Under the pieces are notes generated by a model, which was not told where the DNA came from, made no database searches, and saw only the letters and a program-made list of their open reading frames with translations. This document shows positions 141 through 5,633 of a stretch of 64,000 nucleotides of DNA, piece by piece. Where the stretch lies: NCBI GenBank assembly GCA_902596675.1, contig CACJUO010000005.1, forward strand, positions 1 to 64,000, in the 5' to 3' direction. The stretch comes from an uncultured Pelagibacteraceae bacterium (GTDB lineage: Bacteria; Pseudomonadota; Alphaproteobacteria; Pelagibacterales; Pelagibacteraceae). How positions within the stretch are numbered: the stretch's first letter is position 1; every line of letters starts with the position of its first letter. The position numbers and the translations under genes were made by a program.

Positions 141-1919
141 ATGATTATTAAATTTTTACTCTTGGTATTTTCTATATTAAGTTTATATTTTTTGGGTAAT
201 TTCTCAGTTCAACTTTTTAAGAATAAACTAAAATTTTCAAATAAATTCTTATCTGCTTCAGAGAGTATAATCATCGGACTATATTTATGGGGATCTTTTG
301 TTTTTATTTTTAATTTTTTTTTTAAAATAAATTCAAATGAATTCTATATTTCTGCAACTTTATTTTTTTTTATAATTTTACTGCCATTTCATAAATTTGA
401 GATTAACAAAAAACATTTAAAATATTTAGCTATTTTTACTTTACTCTCATTCCCATTAGTTCTCTCTATGGATTCAGGTTATGATGCAGGTCTATATCAT
501 TTATCCCACCAAAAAATTATAAGAGAAGAAAAGATCATTTTTGGATTATCAAGTTTTCATAATGTCTATGGTCTTGCTTCATTTTATGAATATTTAGTTG
601 CACCACTATGGATTGGTAATACATTTGATAATTTAGCTAACATTCAAGTTATTTTTTATATTACATTATTTTTATTTTTATATGAAATATCTAGAAGTGA
701 TAAATTAGTTAGTGTTTATGTTTTAATATTTTTATTATCAGTACCATTTTGGTTAAGGTATGCTCCTATAAAATGGGGACTAGTCGATTTTCCTTTTGGA
801 GTATTATTTTTTTTAAGTGTTGTAACCTCAACAATTTTATTCAAATCAAGAGATAATATAAGATCTAAACATTTGTTTTCTTTTTTAATTATTTCAACCA
901 GTATGGTTTTTTTTTTAAAACCTGGAGGTTTCATAATTGGGATTATAACTATTAGTAGTATTTATTATTTAATTAAAAAAAATTTATTTACACCATTACA
1001 AATAATAAAACTTTTAACAATTCCAACCTTTATTGTAATACTTTGGATGGTAAGAGGTTTTATTAATACATCATGTTTATTATATCCTTTTGCGTTTAGC
1101 TGCATAGATACTAAATGGGGAAGTGCAGCACAGGCCGAATTTCATTGGAGTATTACAAAAGATTGGGGTCAAATAATAATTGATACAATAGTTCTTAATT
1201 TAAATATTACGACAACAAATTTATATATTATATTTATAGCTATTATTATACTCTTTATTTTAACACATAACTTAATAGTAAAAAAAAATTTTAAGATAAA
1301 AATAAAATATTTTTATATTTCAATTATTATTATATTTTTAATTCAACTTTTAATTTCTAATAAAAATATTGACTTTGCTCGAGATCAATTAACTTTCAAT
1401 AAAATAATTATAGAAAGTATTTATCTAATTGGTACTTTTATTACATTTTACATTTTGCAAATTTATTGTTTTGGTTTAAAGAAAATAAATAGTGAATTGC
1501 TCAAATTTAAATTTATCCCACTTTTTTTTAGTATATTGGTAGTTTTAATATGGATTAGCACAGCCCCTATTCCAAGATTAGGGTATTCTTTTATTGGTTC
1601 ATTTTTTCTAACTTTTTTACTCATGCTAAATGAAAAAAATACAGACAAAACTTCTTTAAAATTAAATATTAATTTATTGTTAATATTAATTTTTTTGTAC
1701 AATTTCACACACACTTTTTTTTCAGATTTAAAAATAAAAAGATTTAATTTTGATCCCCTTATAATTCCACAAATAATAACAGAAAACAGAAAGGGTTTCG
1801 GTGTGAAACCAAAAATTGGGGACCAGTGTTGGGATACTATTTGGTGCAGTCCAATAGAACCATATATATTGAAAATTGTTGAAATTAATAGCTACAAATT
1901 TTTGATTAAAAAAAAATAG
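141..1919 (+). CDS. Polytopic membrane protein, GT-C glycosyltransferase-like
   Basis: A 592-residue protein made mostly of hydrophobic segments, with roughly 12 or more predicted membrane spans. A soluble-looking stretch around residues 110-150 contains SMDSGYDAGLYHLSHQK. A later loop near residue 305-325 (RGFINTSCLLYPFAFSC) resembles large bacterial membrane proteins that behave like lipid-linked-sugar glycosyltransferases of the GT-C fold, including the LIC_10190-like group. I recognise that resemblance from memory and cannot confirm it. It sits upstream of an acyltransferase gene, so a role in surface glycan assembly or modification is plausible. No catalytic residue is assigned. It probably belongs to the variable island that ends near 3785. 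Confidence 0.6.
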   Translation: MIIKFLLLVFSILSLYFLGNFSVQLFKNKLKFSNKFLSASESIIIGLYLWGSFVFIFNFFFKINSNEFYISATLFFFIILLPFHKFEINKKHLKYLAIFTLLSFPLVLSMDSGYDAGLYHLSHQKIIREEKIIFGLSSFHNVYGLASFYEYLVAPLWIGNTFDNLANIQVIFYITLFLFLYEISRSDKLVSVYVLIFLLSVPFWLRYAPIKWGLVDFPFGVLFFLSVVTSTILFKSRDNIRSKHLFSFLIISTSMVFFLKPGGFIIGIITISSIYYLIKKNLFTPLQIIKLLTIPTFIVILWMVRGFINTSCLLYPFAFSCIDTKWGSAAQAEFHWSITKDWGQIIIDTIVLNLNITTTNLYIIFIAIIILFILTHNLIVKKNFKIKIKYFYISIIIIFLIQLLISNKNIDFARDQLTFNKIIIESIYLIGTFITFYILQIYCFGLKKINSELLKFKFIPLFFSILVVLIWISTAPIPRLGYSFIGSFFLTFLLMLNEKNTDKTSLKLNINLLLILIFLYNFTHTFFSDLKIKRFNFDPLIIPQIITENRKGFGVKPKIGDQCWDTIWCSPIEPYILKIVEINSYKFLIKKK

Positions 1920-1976
1920 TCAATATATTTAATATAAGATTTACTTAGTTTTATAAACCAGGATTAAAAGAATGTT

Positions 1977-2000
1977 ATAGTTATTTTAGCTATTTTTTTT
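1977..2000 (+). terminator. Possible weak rho-independent terminator
   Basis: A 6-bp stem (1977-1982 with 1988-1993, including one G-T pair) closes a 5-nt loop. It is followed directly by a run of seven T at 1994-2000. It lies between the membrane-protein gene and the acyltransferase gene. The stem has only one G-C pair, so it is weak, and the AT background makes chance occurrence possible. Confidence 0.35.
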
Positions 2001-2025
2001 ATTTAATTGGTATAAATATAACTAT

Positions 2026-2445
2026 GTGATAATTTTTAAACGTTTTCTTTGCTTAATAGGAAATTACTTGCCCCCTCCAATAAACAAGTATTTTTATTTT
2101 CTCGCTGGAGTAAGTTTTAATATAAATAAAGTTTGGATAGGAAATCAATGTTATTTTGATACTGTGAGGCCTGATCTAATAAAAATTGAGGATGAAACGT
2201 GTATTAGTTTTAGAGTAATGATTATTACGCACTTTGACCCAACTAAATCCATAAAAAATCATGATATGAAAAATTATTATAAGCCTGTTATAATTAAATC
2301 TAAAAGTTTTATAGGACCAGGGTCGATCATAAACCCCGGTGTTATAATTGGTAAAAATTGTTTTATCAAATCAGGATCAGTTGTTCATAAAAGTATTCCC
2401 GATAACAGTATGGTTGGTCAAGCTTCTGAAATCAAAACTATTTAA
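2026..2445 (+). CDS. Hexapeptide-repeat acyltransferase (left-handed beta-helix)
   Basis: A 139-residue protein whose C-terminal half carries hexapeptide-type repeats (GPGSIINPGVIIGKNCFIKSG, then VVHKSIPDNSMVGQ). This is typical of the trimeric acyl/acetyltransferases that use acetyl-CoA or acyl-ACP to modify sugars. The end resembles maltose/galactoside-type O-acetyltransferases, but the substrate cannot be told from sequence. The start is GTG at 2026. The ATG overlapping it at 2024 meets a stop at once (ATGTGA), so GTG is the only reasonable start. It is shorter than typical family members (about 180-200 residues), so it is a minimal version. Neighbours suggest surface polysaccharide modification. 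Confidence 0.75.
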   Translation: MIIFKRFLCLIGNYLPPPINKYFYFLAGVSFNINKVWIGNQCYFDTVRPDLIKIEDETCISFRVMIITHFDPTKSIKNHDMKNYYKPVIIKSKSFIGPGSIINPGVIIGKNCFIKSGSVVHKSIPDNSMVGQASEIKTI

Positions 2446-2456
2446 TAGATAATTAA

Positions 2457-3104
2457 ATGGAAACAAATATTGATGAACTGCTAAAGCAAGGTGCTATCAA
2501 TTATAACAATAGAAATTTTATCCAAGCGGAAGAGTGCTATAGAAAAATAATAAAACTCAAACCAAATCATGTAGGCGCACAAAATAACTTGGGTATAATA
2601 CTACAGGCATTAGGAAAGCTTGATGAGGCTGAGCTTAGATTTAAAAAAACTATTGAACTTAATCCAAATCATGTGATTGCTCATAATAATTTAGGTATTA
2701 TTTTTCAATCACTAGGTAAATTAAAAGAAGCAGAAACAAGTTATAGAAGAACTATTGAGCTAAAACCAGATCACATTGGTGCATACAATAACTTAGGTAC
2801 AATATTGCAACTACTAGGCAGACTTGATGAAGCAGAATTATACTTTAGAAAGATCATTAAACTCAATCCTGATTTTGCAATGGCCTACAGCAACCTAGGT
2901 ATTACAGTTGAAAGACTTGGAAGACTAAATGAAGCTAAAGAAATCTTAAAAAAAGCTATGACTCTTGATTCAAATAATAAAAAAACGGTAATAGCATTCG
3001 GTGAACTACTTTTAAAATTAAATGATCACAATAATGGACTTAATTTAATTTCACAAGCACAGGGCGTTATTGAATTTAATCAAAAAGATTTTAAAATTAT
3101 TTAG
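2457..3104 (+). CDS. TPR-repeat protein
   Basis: A 215-residue protein built from about five consecutive 34-residue tetratricopeptide repeats. Each shows the N-NLG-I-Q-LGK--EAE--(Y/F)--I-L-P pattern, from roughly residue 8 to 180. TPR units form an alpha-helical superhelix for protein-protein binding. No signal peptide or membrane segment is visible, so it should be cytosolic. The next gene, a 2OG-Fe(II) oxygenase, starts 2 nt after this stop codon, so the two are almost certainly co-translated. TPR and prolyl-hydroxylase domains also occur fused in other proteins, so a joint function is likely. The partner and substrate are unknown. Confidence 0.85.
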   Translation: METNIDELLKQGAINYNNRNFIQAEECYRKIIKLKPNHVGAQNNLGIILQALGKLDEAELRFKKTIELNPNHVIAHNNLGIIFQSLGKLKEAETSYRRTIELKPDHIGAYNNLGTILQLLGRLDEAELYFRKIIKLNPDFAMAYSNLGITVERLGRLNEAKEILKKAMTLDSNNKKTVIAFGELLLKLNDHNNGLNLISQAQGVIEFNQKDFKII

Positions 3105-3106
3105 AA

Positions 3107-3754
3107 ATGAAAAGAATAAAGATAAAAACAAAAAAAAATAATAATGATAAGATTTTAATTGAAAATGAAAATCCACATTTTATCGGTGCTTGGAATATAG
3201 AAAATGATGATTTATGTAGAGAAATTATAAATTTTTTTGAGGAAAATAAAAACTTACAGAGAGACGGTGTTACAGGTTCTGGAAAGAACCAAGAAATAAA
3301 AAAAACAACAGATATAGTTGTAAATCCAAATGATTTAAAATACCCAAAATTTAATTGTCTTAACAAGTACATTCAACATTTATATAAGAATTTTAAAGAT
3401 TATCAGAACCAGTGGCCATTCCTTAAAAATTTGGTAAAAGAAATGCACATTGGAAAGTTTAATATTCAAAGATATACGCCTGGAGGCCATTTTGCAAAAG
3501 TTCATACAGAAAGAAGTTCAATTGCTTCGTCACATAGATTGTTTGCCTGGATGACTTATTTAAACAATGTTGATGATGGAGGTACAACACATTTTTCTCA
3601 CTACAATATAGATATCAAACCTGAAACTGGCAAAACACTAATTTGGCCAGCTGAATGGACACATGCACATAATGGAAAAATTTTGAATAGTGGTGTTAAA
3701 TATATAATTACTGGTTGGTTGCATTTCCCACATATTACAAATCATGAGAAATAA
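3107..3754 (+). CDS. 2-oxoglutarate/Fe(II)-dependent dioxygenase, prolyl 4-hydroxylase type
   Basis: A 215-residue protein with a P4H-like double-stranded beta-helix core in its C-terminal half. Visible ligands are H133-T-E135 (an HxE variant of the usual HxD iron motif), H188 as the distal iron ligand, and K198 as the likely 2-oxoglutarate carboxylate-binding residue. DDGGTTHF (156-163) precedes the second half as in prolyl hydroxylases. It would couple 2-oxoglutarate decarboxylation to hydroxylation of a protein or small substrate. It follows the TPR gene by 2 nt. The HxE form is less common but occurs in active members. The actual substrate is unknown. Confidence 0.8.
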   Translation: MKRIKIKTKKNNNDKILIENENPHFIGAWNIENDDLCREIINFFEENKNLQRDGVTGSGKNQEIKKTTDIVVNPNDLKYPKFNCLNKYIQHLYKNFKDYQNQWPFLKNLVKEMHIGKFNIQRYTPGGHFAKVHTERSSIASSHRLFAWMTYLNNVDDGGTTHFSHYNIDIKPETGKTLIWPAEWTHAHNGKILNSGVKYIITGWLHFPHITNHEK

Positions 3755-3785: not shown

Positions 3786-3837
3786 AGTGATGGTGCCCCC
3801 GCACGGACTCGAACCGCGGACCTATTGATTACAAATC
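3786..3837 (-). repeat. Partial tRNA-Thr 3'-half, att-like direct repeat
   Basis: These 52 bp match 4774-4825 with one mismatch (3808 versus 4796). Read on the minus strand they hold the tRNA-Thr sequence from the last two bases of the 5' anticodon stem through the anticodon loop, T-arm, acceptor strand and encoded CCA, plus 5 nt beyond. The 5' half of the tRNA is missing, so this cannot be a functional tRNA. Duplication of a tRNA 3' half with its boundary at the anticodon loop is the classic footprint of tyrosine-recombinase integration into a tRNA gene. Confidence 0.88.
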
Positions 3838-3897
3838 TTGTATCATCAATCAAATAAATATACTTTAGCAATACTTATAAACAATCATCAGTAATCT

Positions 3898-3918
3898 CGA
3901 CACACGTACGACACAATG
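3898..3918 (+). repeat. Left CGACAC repeat pair, 11-bp spacing
   Basis: CGACAC occurs at 3898-3903 and 3909-3914, exactly 11 bp apart. The pattern is CGACACAC-3 nt-CGACACAAT. The same pattern recurs at 4705-4724 on the other side of the gene. It lies 15-35 nt upstream of the start at 3933. Confidence 0.8.
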
Positions 3919-3932
3919 TTAAAACTCTCATA

Positions 3933-4670
3933 ATGAAAAAACTTTTAGGGATCGTTGTTCTTGGTTTGTTGTTATGTGCAAATGTGTTGGCAAATGGCTC
4001 TGGACTTAAAAATACTCTTCTAAACTCTGAACTTGTGCTTAAATATACAGACGGCTCTATTCATAAAATTAAGTTTTATTCATCAGGAAATGCAGAATGG
4101 AAAACTGGAAAAAGATCATTTGATGTTGTTTGGAATGTAATAGACGACATGACGCTTTCTATTTATAACCCTAAATTATTAAAAGGAAAGTCTCCTCCTA
4201 TTGCAAATATAGATTTTAACAATCTAACATTTACAATTGACCAACTAAATGGAAAGAGCATGTCTTATAAAATTTTATCCCCAAAACAGTTTGCAAGTGG
4301 AACACAACCAACCAAAAATGAGATGAAAAATAATGAAATAATGTTCACGATTAAAGATAAACGTGAGCAATGCGAAGCTATAGGATTTACACCTAAAACA
4401 GAAAAATTTGCTGATTGTGTTTTAAGATTAGTCGAATTAGATGTTAAACAAAAACAATCAAATAAAATTGCACAAGCTCAACAATCTGGAAATGATGCAT
4501 TAGTTAAGCAATTACAAAGACAACAGTATGATAGAGATACGGATGCTTTATTAAGTCTTGGCCAGCAGTTGTTGAATCCTGGAACAACTAATTCAAATAT
4601 CTATATGCCTCAAACTCAACGTTGTACTATCCAAGGTTTTGGAACGTTTGCAAAAATGGTTTGCAGATAA
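3933..4670 (+). CDS. Secreted hypothetical protein, cassette cargo
   Basis: I do not recognise a named family. The 245-residue product begins with a clear signal peptide (MKKLLGIVVLGLLLCANVLA, likely cleavage after A20). C15 is not in a good lipobox because L14 precedes it. Residues about 30-115 are beta-rich (LKYTDGSIHKIKFYSSGNAEW) and look like a small lipocalin- or META-like sheet. Residues 143-172 hold a C-AIGF-P-TEKFADCVL-L pattern with C147 and C162. A Gln-rich helical stretch follows, and a C-terminal pair C231/C244 could form a disulfide. It is the only gene between the two tRNA-Thr copies and is read toward the intact tRNA. Function is unknown; periplasmic or exported location is inferred. 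Confidence 0.75.
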   Translation: MKKLLGIVVLGLLLCANVLANGSGLKNTLLNSELVLKYTDGSIHKIKFYSSGNAEWKTGKRSFDVVWNVIDDMTLSIYNPKLLKGKSPPIANIDFNNLTFTIDQLNGKSMSYKILSPKQFASGTQPTKNEMKNNEIMFTIKDKREQCEAIGFTPKTEKFADCVLRLVELDVKQKQSNKIAQAQQSGNDALVKQLQRQQYDRDTDALLSLGQQLLNPGTTNSNIYMPQTQRCTIQGFGTFAKMVCR

Positions 4671-4693
4671 TATTTAAAACGACTACTTGATCA

Positions 4694-4726
4694 CGACACT
4701 AGCTCGACACACTCTCGACACAATAG
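4694..4726 (+). repeat. Right CGACAC repeat triplet, 11-bp spacing
   Basis: CGACAC occurs at 4694, 4705 and 4716, each exactly 11 bp after the last. The last two units have the same form as the left pair (CGACACAC then CGACACAATAG). They start 24 nt after the stop of the cargo gene and 48 nt before the tRNA-Thr-containing repeat. Helical-turn spacing suggests protein binding sites on one face of DNA. Confidence 0.82.
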
Positions 4727-4778
4727 TTTAGATTTTTTATCTTTAGCAAAAATAATAAATGTTGAATTTATTGAGTGA

Positions 4779-4854
4779 TGGTGCCCCCGCACGGATTCGA
4801 ACCGCGGACCTATTGATTACAAATCAATTGCTCTACCAGCTGAGCTACAAGGGC
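4779..4854 (-). tRNA. tRNA-Thr(UGU)
   Basis: A complete 76-nt cloverleaf on the minus strand. The acceptor GCCCTTG pairs with CGGGGGC through G-T pairs. The D-arm is GCTC/GAGC, the anticodon stem ATTGA/TCAAT has loop TTTGTAA (anticodon TGT), and the T-loop is TTCGAAT. Discriminator A and CCA are encoded. It lies downstream of the rlmB-like gene on the same strand and is the intact partner of the truncated copy at 3786-3837. Confidence 0.95.
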
Positions 4855-4895: not shown

Positions 4896-5633
4896 TTATT
4901 TTTGTTGATTTATATGGTGAAAAACAATTGCAGCACTGTTAGATATATTTAAACTCTCAATATTTTTATTCATATTAATTTTTACTTTAAAATCAGTATA
5001 TTTTTCAGTATGCTTGTTTAGACCATGTCCTTCAGAACCAAATAGTAAAATATTATTTCCATTCCATTTTATTTCAGTAAAATTTTTATCACTATTCGCG
5101 GTAAATCCATAAACCCAAAAATTTTTATCTCTTAAAAATTTTAAAGTAGTATTTATATTTGATACTTGAAAAATATTTAAGTATTCAACACAACCACTCG
5201 CAGATTTATATAAAGCTTTACTTTCGCTTGGAAAGTGTCTTTCTTTAACTATAAGACCATCAATATTAAATGAGGCCGCACTTCTAATTAATGAGCCAAT
5301 ATTTCTTGGATCAGTTACTTCATCCAAGCAAACAAATGTTAAATTATTTTTTTGTTTAATAAATTCTTTTAATACCAGATTTTCTAAATGTTCTATTTCT
5401 GCAACATAACCTTGATGAAGGATATCTTCACTTCTGCAATATTTATCTAGCTCTTTTTTTGTTTTAAAAAAAACCTTTATGTCCTTTAGTAAATTTCTAT
5501 TAGGGCTCTGTTTGTGAATATTTTTTTTACTTTCTTCTGTTAAGAAAATTTTTAAAACCCTTCTTTTGGGATTTTTTAAAGCTTCAATAACCGCATGGCG
5601 ACCAGCTATGAAAAAGGAAGATTTTTGAGTCAT
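4896..5633 (-). CDS. rlmB: TrmH/SpoU-family rRNA 2'-O-methyltransferase, RlmB-like
   Basis: A 245-residue SPOUT methyltransferase that would transfer a methyl group from S-adenosylmethionine to a ribose 2'-OH, most likely G2251 of 23S rRNA as in RlmB. The N-terminal substrate-binding domain begins FFIAGRHAVIEAL, typical of RlmB. The three SpoU motifs are present: DEVTDPRNIGSLIRSA (motif 1, with N and R), LLFGSEGHGL (motif 2) and LNISNSAAIVFHH (motif 3, which forms the trefoil knot). Family length is about 240-250, so it is complete. It lies between tRNA-Thr (same strand, downstream) and the divergent tRNA-Tyr/Gly-tuf unit. The exact target nucleotide is inferred from family. Confidence 0.87.
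   Translation of the reverse strand: MTQKSSFFIAGRHAVIEALKNPKRRVLKIFLTEESKKNIHKQSPNRNLLKDIKVFFKTKKELDKYCRSEDILHQGYVAEIEHLENLVLKEFIKQKNNLTFVCLDEVTDPRNIGSLIRSAASFNIDGLIVKERHFPSESKALYKSASGCVEYLNIFQVSNINTTLKFLRDKNFWVYGFTANSDKNFTEIKWNGNNILLFGSEGHGLNKHTEKYTDFKVKINMNKNIESLNISNSAAIVFHHINQQK

Follow-up and report, generated by a model that had tools for sequence, protein, structure and literature searches.

Organization of the tRNA-Thr(UGU) locus

The window analyzed here is a stretch of 64,000 nucleotides from an uncultured Pelagibacteraceae bacterium (assembly GCA_902596675.1, contig CACJUO010000005.1, positions 1 to 64,000), whose genome assembly measures 1.08 Mb and is 74% complete. ARAGORN placed an intact tRNA-Thr(TGT) gene at 4779–4854 on the minus strand, and a repeat search of the window detected a pair of 52-nt direct repeats at 3786–3837 and 4774–4825, 98% identical with one mismatch and spaced by 988 bp. 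A preliminary description had joined the intact gene to a copy of its 3' half through a 52-bp direct repeat with one mismatch, and both searches confirmed this. The boundary had been placed at the anticodon loop; as read from the sequence, the distal copy does end there, being made up of the gene's 3' half and 5 bp more. A single main ORF lies between the two copies (the cores), in keeping with the one-gene element that had been described. The features are:

3786–3837, minus strand: distal core copy, tRNA-Thr(UGU) 3' half plus 5 bp; attL-like
3896–3917, plus strand: left pair of 11-bp-period repeats, CTCGACACACGTACGACACAAT; candidate integrase arm-type sites
3918–3932, plus strand: spacer upstream of the cargo ATG
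3933–4670, plus strand: cargo gene, 245 aa; single main ORF between the cores
4680–4693, plus strand: right-end block, CGACTACTTGATCA
4692–4724, plus strand: right triple of 11-bp-period repeats, CACGACACTAGCTCGACACACTCTCGACACAAT; candidate integrase arm-type sites
4774–4825, minus strand: proximal core copy, extending into the intact tRNA gene; attR-like
4779–4854, minus strand: tRNA-Thr(UGU), intact; proposed integration target
4896–5633, minus strand: SpoU-family methyltransferase gene, called rlmB-like; chromosomal neighbour used as identity yardstick

The distal core copy is read as a relic of the original host site. In the consensus of the family, the block at 3918–3932 resembles a putative −10 box, a T-tract and an ATG codon. 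The repeats with an 11-bp period inside both ends had not been mentioned in the preliminary description. No match to Phage_integrase (PF00589) was found in the 74%-complete assembly of the window's genome, which agrees with the earlier view that the element lacks a recombinase. To the left of the cassette, positions 141–3754 encode a 592-aa protein without a Pfam match, a hexapeptide transferase, a TPR protein and a 2OG-Fe(II) oxygenase. This left flank had no match in the other tRNA-Thr loci compared.

Elements between tRNA-Thr cores in the genus

When 300 same-genus genomes were searched at the DNA level, each end of the cassette gave matches separately, the cargo between not being included. 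The 29-base core was shown by pattern search to be present in 214 of the 300 same-genus (Pelagibacteraceae) genomes. At least two copies are held by 82 of these 214, the window's genome included, a count in which one copy lies on the other strand or on another contig in at least G138 and G153. Because the core recurs to this extent and the reversed-pattern control gave 0 in its rows, a chance origin of the repeat is excluded. Such a mini-element, which had been expected to be unusual, is on these counts common in the genus.

Inter-core elements were collected from 80 stretches around tRNA-Thr, including L178 and the window; two further stretches of 100 bases were unusable. G298, G253, G155, G285 and G218 were sampled twice, L181 and L187 were excluded from the element counts, and no element was counted double. 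The set comprises 74 elements in 56 loci, with lengths of 411–7742 bp (median 1541), 61 of them at most 2.5 kb long. Tandem arrays contain up to four elements, and five cores in a row were found in G106. Other cargo between the same repeats, which the preliminary description had proposed to look for, is present in related tRNA-Thr loci. Many loci of this set were chosen as looking occupied; frequency estimates rest on other sets, namely the 300-genome search and 20 near-complete genomes from a completeness-sorted list, four of which have a second core. In G155, a 41-bp exact copy of the tRNA-Thr 5' half was observed about 6 kb 5' of the intact gene (contig C2, 217310–217350).

Matching of the end repeats

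Arm-type binding sites of tyrosine integrases are short direct repeats that flank the core on both sides. The motif CGACACA occurs five times in the 64-kb window, with four of the copies at the two ends of the element; 1.15 are expected, and five were reached in 1 of 100 shuffles. In a typical element of the family, the core at the left end is followed after about 60 bp by two repeats and then by a block that ends with ATG; at the right end, a CGACTACTTGATTG-like block comes first, then two to three repeats, another stretch of about 60 bp and the core. The CGACTACTTGATTG-like block was found near the right end in 49 of the 74 elements (GACTACTTGAT, at most two mismatches in 11 bases). The repeat motif varies by element (CGACACA, GTCACA, GCAACA, GACAACA, TACACA, CTGCA and others), and left and right motifs are the same within one element.

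The best 22-base match between the two ends of the same element averages 16.45 for the 74 elements, compared with 13.85 ± 0.19 for shuffled partners (z 13.5; maximum 14.61 in 20,000 shuffles), the shuffles treating the elements as unrelated and ignoring kinship between them. The element in the window matches at 19 of 22 positions, and an earlier set of 52 elements gave z 11. Within 15 multi-element arrays, own pairs score 16.8 (33 pairs) and other pairs from the same array 13.9 (44 pairs), so that the end match is not a genome-wide property. Two results on the ends count against movement by an integrase supplied in trans. The own right end ranks among the top 5 of 74 in only 37 of the 74 elements, partly because the repeat classes resemble one another, and decayed or odd ends are found in L079_11813, L195 and L211.

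Measured from the beginning of the core, the first gene starts at 142–143 nt in 52 of the 66 elements having a start within 125–175, a peak that is sharpened by the script's choice of the start codon nearest 141 in this range. A plain ORF list, made without a position rule, gave 142 or 143 for most first genes. Searching 25 genomes with the left-end consensus of the cassette (21 bases, at most three mismatches) returned 15 matches, six at tRNA-Thr and nine elsewhere. All nine have three mismatches, the reversed control gave four matches, and the pattern misses known cassettes with other left ends.

Cargo of the cassettes

The 245-aa product of the window cargo gene had no Pfam match over the cut-off and no PHROG, PADLOC or phage tblastn match. 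It is composed of a signal-peptide-like start, MKKLLGIVVLGLLL, a middle part and a C-terminal half. Matches, mostly short, were found in 20 of 297 family genomes, and only two relatives align usefully, each over a different part. The best relative, in G549 (L180, 7449–8424; another SAR11 genus), lies within a cassette of its own, which has ATTACGAG repeats with an 11-bp period at both ends. On one side of it is a tmRNA gene and on the other, 922 bp from that gene, a copy of the alpha-tmRNA 3' part (81% over 54 nt). The window cargo is a mosaic, with the signal peptide and the C-terminal half common to G549 and the middle common to a G414 protein that appears, in our reading of its sequence, to be trypsin-domain-like.

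Gene starts with at least 12 of 20 positions identical to the peptide MKKLLGIVVLGLLLSGNAYA were found in 23 of the 74 elements, the rest of the proteins being unlike. A near-identical signal peptide, encoded at 3933–3992 of the window and in 22 further elements, was often that of the last gene of the cassette. A shared leader peptide may ease the swapping in of new domains.

The cargo scan covered 99 of 186 ORFs, scanned together, with 25 of 49 Pfam and 25 of 36 PADLOC families listed. Among those listed, the Pfam matches include MrcB_N, HNH, DUF4268, Mrr_cat, DpnI, trypsin, SpoIIE, globin and N_methyl, and the PADLOC matches include candidate defence and methyl-directed restriction models. 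The restriction and candidate-defence matches suggest that the cassettes may spread phage resistance. Clusters of four to six pilin-like genes within one element were observed in L070 (9845–13848), L075 (6937–9228), L210 and L220; their N-terminal helices are near-identical and their C-terminal parts differ.

Empty sites and a cassette common to two species

Seven loci with a single core have a nadK-like gene, recognized by motif, whose stop codon lies 0–4 bp from the end of the tRNA gene. Empty sites, whose presence in relatives the preliminary description had left to be checked, therefore exist. In five occupied loci the nadK-like stop lies 0 bp from the distal core, and NAD kinase was confirmed by Pfam in both copies tested (L162 and L233). 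Precise insertion is expected to give these two states, the nadK–tRNA and the nadK–core junction. Of the 58 loci in which nadK is within reach, most have other DNA between nadK and the first core, which counts against the involvement of a trans-acting integrase and shows the tRNA-Thr locus to be an older flexible region too.

The clearest case of movement is a 1122-bp cassette with a single base difference between G244 and G106, two species in a comparison with one genome per species. The identity starts and ends at the cores; the 60 bp leftward agree at 22 positions, and the tRNA–rlmB side is 82.8% identical over 1615 bp. The cassette adjoins the tRNA in G244, and three other elements intervene in G106. 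For an assembly error to cause this sharing, it would need to be exact at each of the two cores. Site-specific integration at tRNA-Thr, as originally proposed, fits the empty sites and the cassette identity bounded by the cores. Neither a segment fixed in all relatives with no empty site nor repeats unlike att sites, the two outcomes named beforehand as refuting the proposal, was found.

Integrase-bearing elements with the same core

A complete element occupies tRNA-Thr in L233, Pelagibacteraceae isolate AH-326-M17, which is labelled a MAG in its record; names of this type are usual for single-cell genomes. Its cores are 6927 bp apart, and it carries an integrase and a 691-aa primase. The gene order after the element (tRNA-Thr, rlmB-like, tRNA-Tyr, tRNA-Gly, tuf-like, tRNA-Trp) is the same as in the window. 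The 21-bp block at its right-hand side, TGACAACAATCTGACAACACT, recurs in four of the 74 elements (L197_11187, L207_5199, L212 and L214), and a 22-base version of the block is found in one cassette.

The viral contig L138 has the core as an attP, with repeats, core, repeats and then a 328-aa integrase, and also has an AAA primase-like gene and a small-terminase match. G248 (L162) has the nadK stop followed in succession by the core, GCAACA repeats and an integrase. G625 (L178) has a 78-aa integrase stump at the integrase position, beside a peroxiredoxin and a methyltransferase; the stump shares 65% identity with the integrase over 74 aa and gives no Pfam match itself. Integrases start 150–151 nt from the core start; the cargo of a cassette is placed about where the integrase gene starts in an integrase-bearing element. 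The candidate integrases match phage integrase families.

Relatives of the integrase are scarce, being detected in 19 of 399 same-genus genomes (E ≤ 1e-15). Three are above 60% identity, namely those of G253 (at tRNA-Asn) and G248 and the G625 stump. An element with an integrase of the same family and a primase-type gene was observed at tRNA-Asn in L161 (2277–8787), and more distant integrase relatives lie beside copies of tRNA-Met and tRNA-Gly. An integrase of the window's CGACACA class was not found at tRNA-Thr, which counts against an integrase acting in trans. The nearest one lies at tRNA-Met in another genus, where CCTGACACACGTATGACACAACG is like the window's left repeat at 19 of 23 positions.

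L205 holds a second integrase lineage on the same core, comprising an integrase with an Arm-DNA-bind_3 domain, which we label 'P4-like', and a primase. A tblastn search of the loci with three integrase queries gave no match; it also missed this distant integrase, which was found via ORFs and Pfam. Second-lineage elements with TTCACTTCA- or TTGACTACA-type repeats were observed at tRNA-Thr in L205 (1558–9299), L091, L198, L201, L203 and L204; those other than L205 have large genes, e.g. for MmeI-type restriction-modification and a MotA/ExbB-type protein. The elements of L091, L198 and L201–L204 measure 4.9–7.6 kb and have long-style repeats similar to those of L205. Scanning 18 of their ORFs revealed no integrase; MmeI-type, ResIII, Mrr_cat_2, T5orf172, SNase and AAA-domain proteins were found. 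PF00589 gave 23 matches in 25 genomes, all of them outside tRNA-Thr arrays. A conserved tyrosine recombinase of 301–319 aa, perhaps a chromosome-dimer resolvase, was observed away from the arrays in L095, L097, L099, L101–L103, L108, L110 and L113.

Viral contigs with the tRNA core numbered 24 by a 33-base pattern and 35 by a 21-base pattern. As judged by eye, nearly all run on into the rest of the tRNA gene, and L138 is the one attP. Many viral contigs (L117–L140, L221–L231) also seem by eye to encode a whole tRNA-Thr with the SAR11-core anticodon arm. Searching viral contigs for relatives of the L138 integrase returned itself alone, or itself and a 28% relative. Among annotated phages, 324 records were returned, all below 60% identity, the best among those listed at 37%. 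Six viral contigs matched an integrase start with the window's repeats, none of them integrase-like at the start by eye. The exact consensus left end of the cassettes, searched as one pattern, was found in 0 viral contigs, and packaging of cassettes is therefore without support.

Proposed mechanism and alternatives

The segment is best read, with a probability of about 0.85, as a non-autonomous cassette with attP ends whose movement is site-specific and integrase-dependent and is brought about in trans by the integrase of a satellite or phage. What is seen directly is the anatomy, sites in both the empty and the occupied state, a cassette that two species have in common, and a complete integrase-bearing element of like architecture at the tRNA-Thr site. 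Mobilization in trans by a phage or satellite, already raised as a possibility in the preliminary description, fits the integrase elements with the same core and repeat architecture. The ends of the cassette would correspond to both ends of the attP of a temperate element. The model predicts that a satellite or phage supplies a tyrosine integrase in trans, which recombines the cassette core with the 3' half of tRNA-Thr(UGU); the tRNA would be left intact at one end of the cassette, with a relic half of it at the opposite end. The repeats spaced by 11 bp would bind the arm domain of the integrase and set which integrase moves which cassette. The cargo gene would occupy the place where the integrase gene would begin, its promoter probably overlapping the arm sites, and repeated insertion at the restored tRNA would give rise to tandem arrays. 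Since cassettes and satellites have a common core, the simplest route of transfer between cells would be excision of a cassette jointly with an adjoining integrated satellite. Binding, excision, the vehicle between cells and the overlap of promoter and arms are the parts of the model that we infer.

Decay of a prophage or satellite could also leave one passenger gene between att sites, a once complete element having been reduced by deletion and being now immobile. Decay does occur, as the integrase stump at the matching position in L178 indicates, and the 74%-complete assembly of the window's genome (G000) has no integrase. Nevertheless, many elements retain the end architecture with the cargo start at a nearly constant distance, and decay alone fails to explain a one-mismatch cassette in two species at different array positions or matched end repeats that flank unlike cargo; this explanation is considered improbable. 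A similarly low probability is given to homologous recombination between tRNA halves and conserved ends, which would shuffle cargo with no present site-specific recombinase. The cores and outer ends are conserved enough for such exchange, and recombination rates in SAR11 are reported to be high (PMC2217521). Exchange of this kind would explain the shuffling of arrays but not the first insertion into an empty nadK–tRNA site, and it leaves the class-matched inner repeats unexplained.

Less likely still is that a resident chromosomal tyrosine recombinase moves the cassettes in an integron-like manner, in place of a satellite integrase. The conserved recombinase that lies away from the arrays might serve, as the nine compared (301–319 aa) are 61–92% identical and it is usually the sole PF00589 match of a genome. 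In our reading of the sequences, however, it is without the N-terminal segment of phage-type integrases. The phage-type integrases have, at the same core, cassette-like repeats directly upstream of their start codon. Movement in trans by a satellite or phage integrase is preferred. On a wider reading, for which the odds seem to us even, SAR11 may possess its own gene-cassette system as a counterpart of the integron. Its small cassettes would have miniature attP ends, fall into integrase-specificity classes by their arm repeats, accumulate in tandem at tRNA-Thr and at the tmRNA of another genus, and be moved by satellites, so that satellites would parasitise phages and cassettes satellites; the surface, secreted and restriction-like cargo may be anti-phage.

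Comparison with known systems

Pelagibacterales, whose genomes are streamlined, rank with the most abundant cells of the sea. Parts of these genomes turn over fast, and the cassette anatomy provides a concrete, testable mechanism for such turnover. It also provides a cheap marker, as any metagenome can be read for core, repeat class and cargo.

Cis-mobilizable elements (CIMEs), which occur beside integrative conjugative elements, are flanked by att sites, have no integrase, share the site of an autonomous relative and accrete with it. The window cassette resembles them in its att-like flanks (core repeats in the tRNA, with empty sites in relatives) and in having no integrase or transfer genes of its own, and cassettes of its type, att-flanked and integrase-less, are found at the same site as an autonomous relative. 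In contrast to CIMEs, the cassettes described here mostly hold one to few genes and have many end classes, their cargo lies near the integrase start position, and their relatives are satellite-like and not conjugative. Integron cassettes form arrays of small cassettes at one site and are moved by a tyrosine recombinase. Here, in contrast, the core is part of a tRNA and is accompanied by arm-type repeats, the phage-type integrase is encoded elsewhere, and every cassette seems to come with a start region of its own.

PICI, PICMI, VEIME and tycheposon are named together as phage satellites in PMC11389934. L233 and L138 resemble phage satellites in having an integrase and primase-type genes, L138 also having the small-terminase match, whereas the window cassette has no integrase of its own, no primase-type or terminase genes and no replication or packaging genes. 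The recognizable phage genes of a prophage remnant are likewise missing from the window cassette, the cargo being without a PHROG or phage tblastn match.

The SAR11 hypervariable region HVR4 is flanked by tRNA genes, and pilins, a globin and a phosphatase are listed for it (PMC2217521, in the part available). By this description it is like the present cassettes in its tRNA flank and in its pilin, globin and phosphatase content, which some of them have. In the same part of that 2007 study, tRNA genes beside the hypervariable region were noted, no integron attC sites were found and no mechanism is given.

Arm-matched tRNA cassettes were not found in a literature search that covered few subscription papers. 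The available parts of two papers describe cassettes delimited by tRNA fragments, in flexible islands of Ca. Actinomarinales (PMC7771536) and in fGI-2 of Methylophilaceae, where they measure 330 bp to 42 kb (PMC10872708). They share with the present cassettes variable cargo beside a tRNA and direct repeats of part of that tRNA; arm-type repeats, matched end classes and a cognate integrase are unmentioned in those parts of the papers. As far as these parts show, tRNA-fragment-delimited cassettes are already known from two other streamlined lineages, and what is new relative to the literature searched is the matched repeat classes, the integrase-bearing element at the same site and the position of the cargo near the integrase start.
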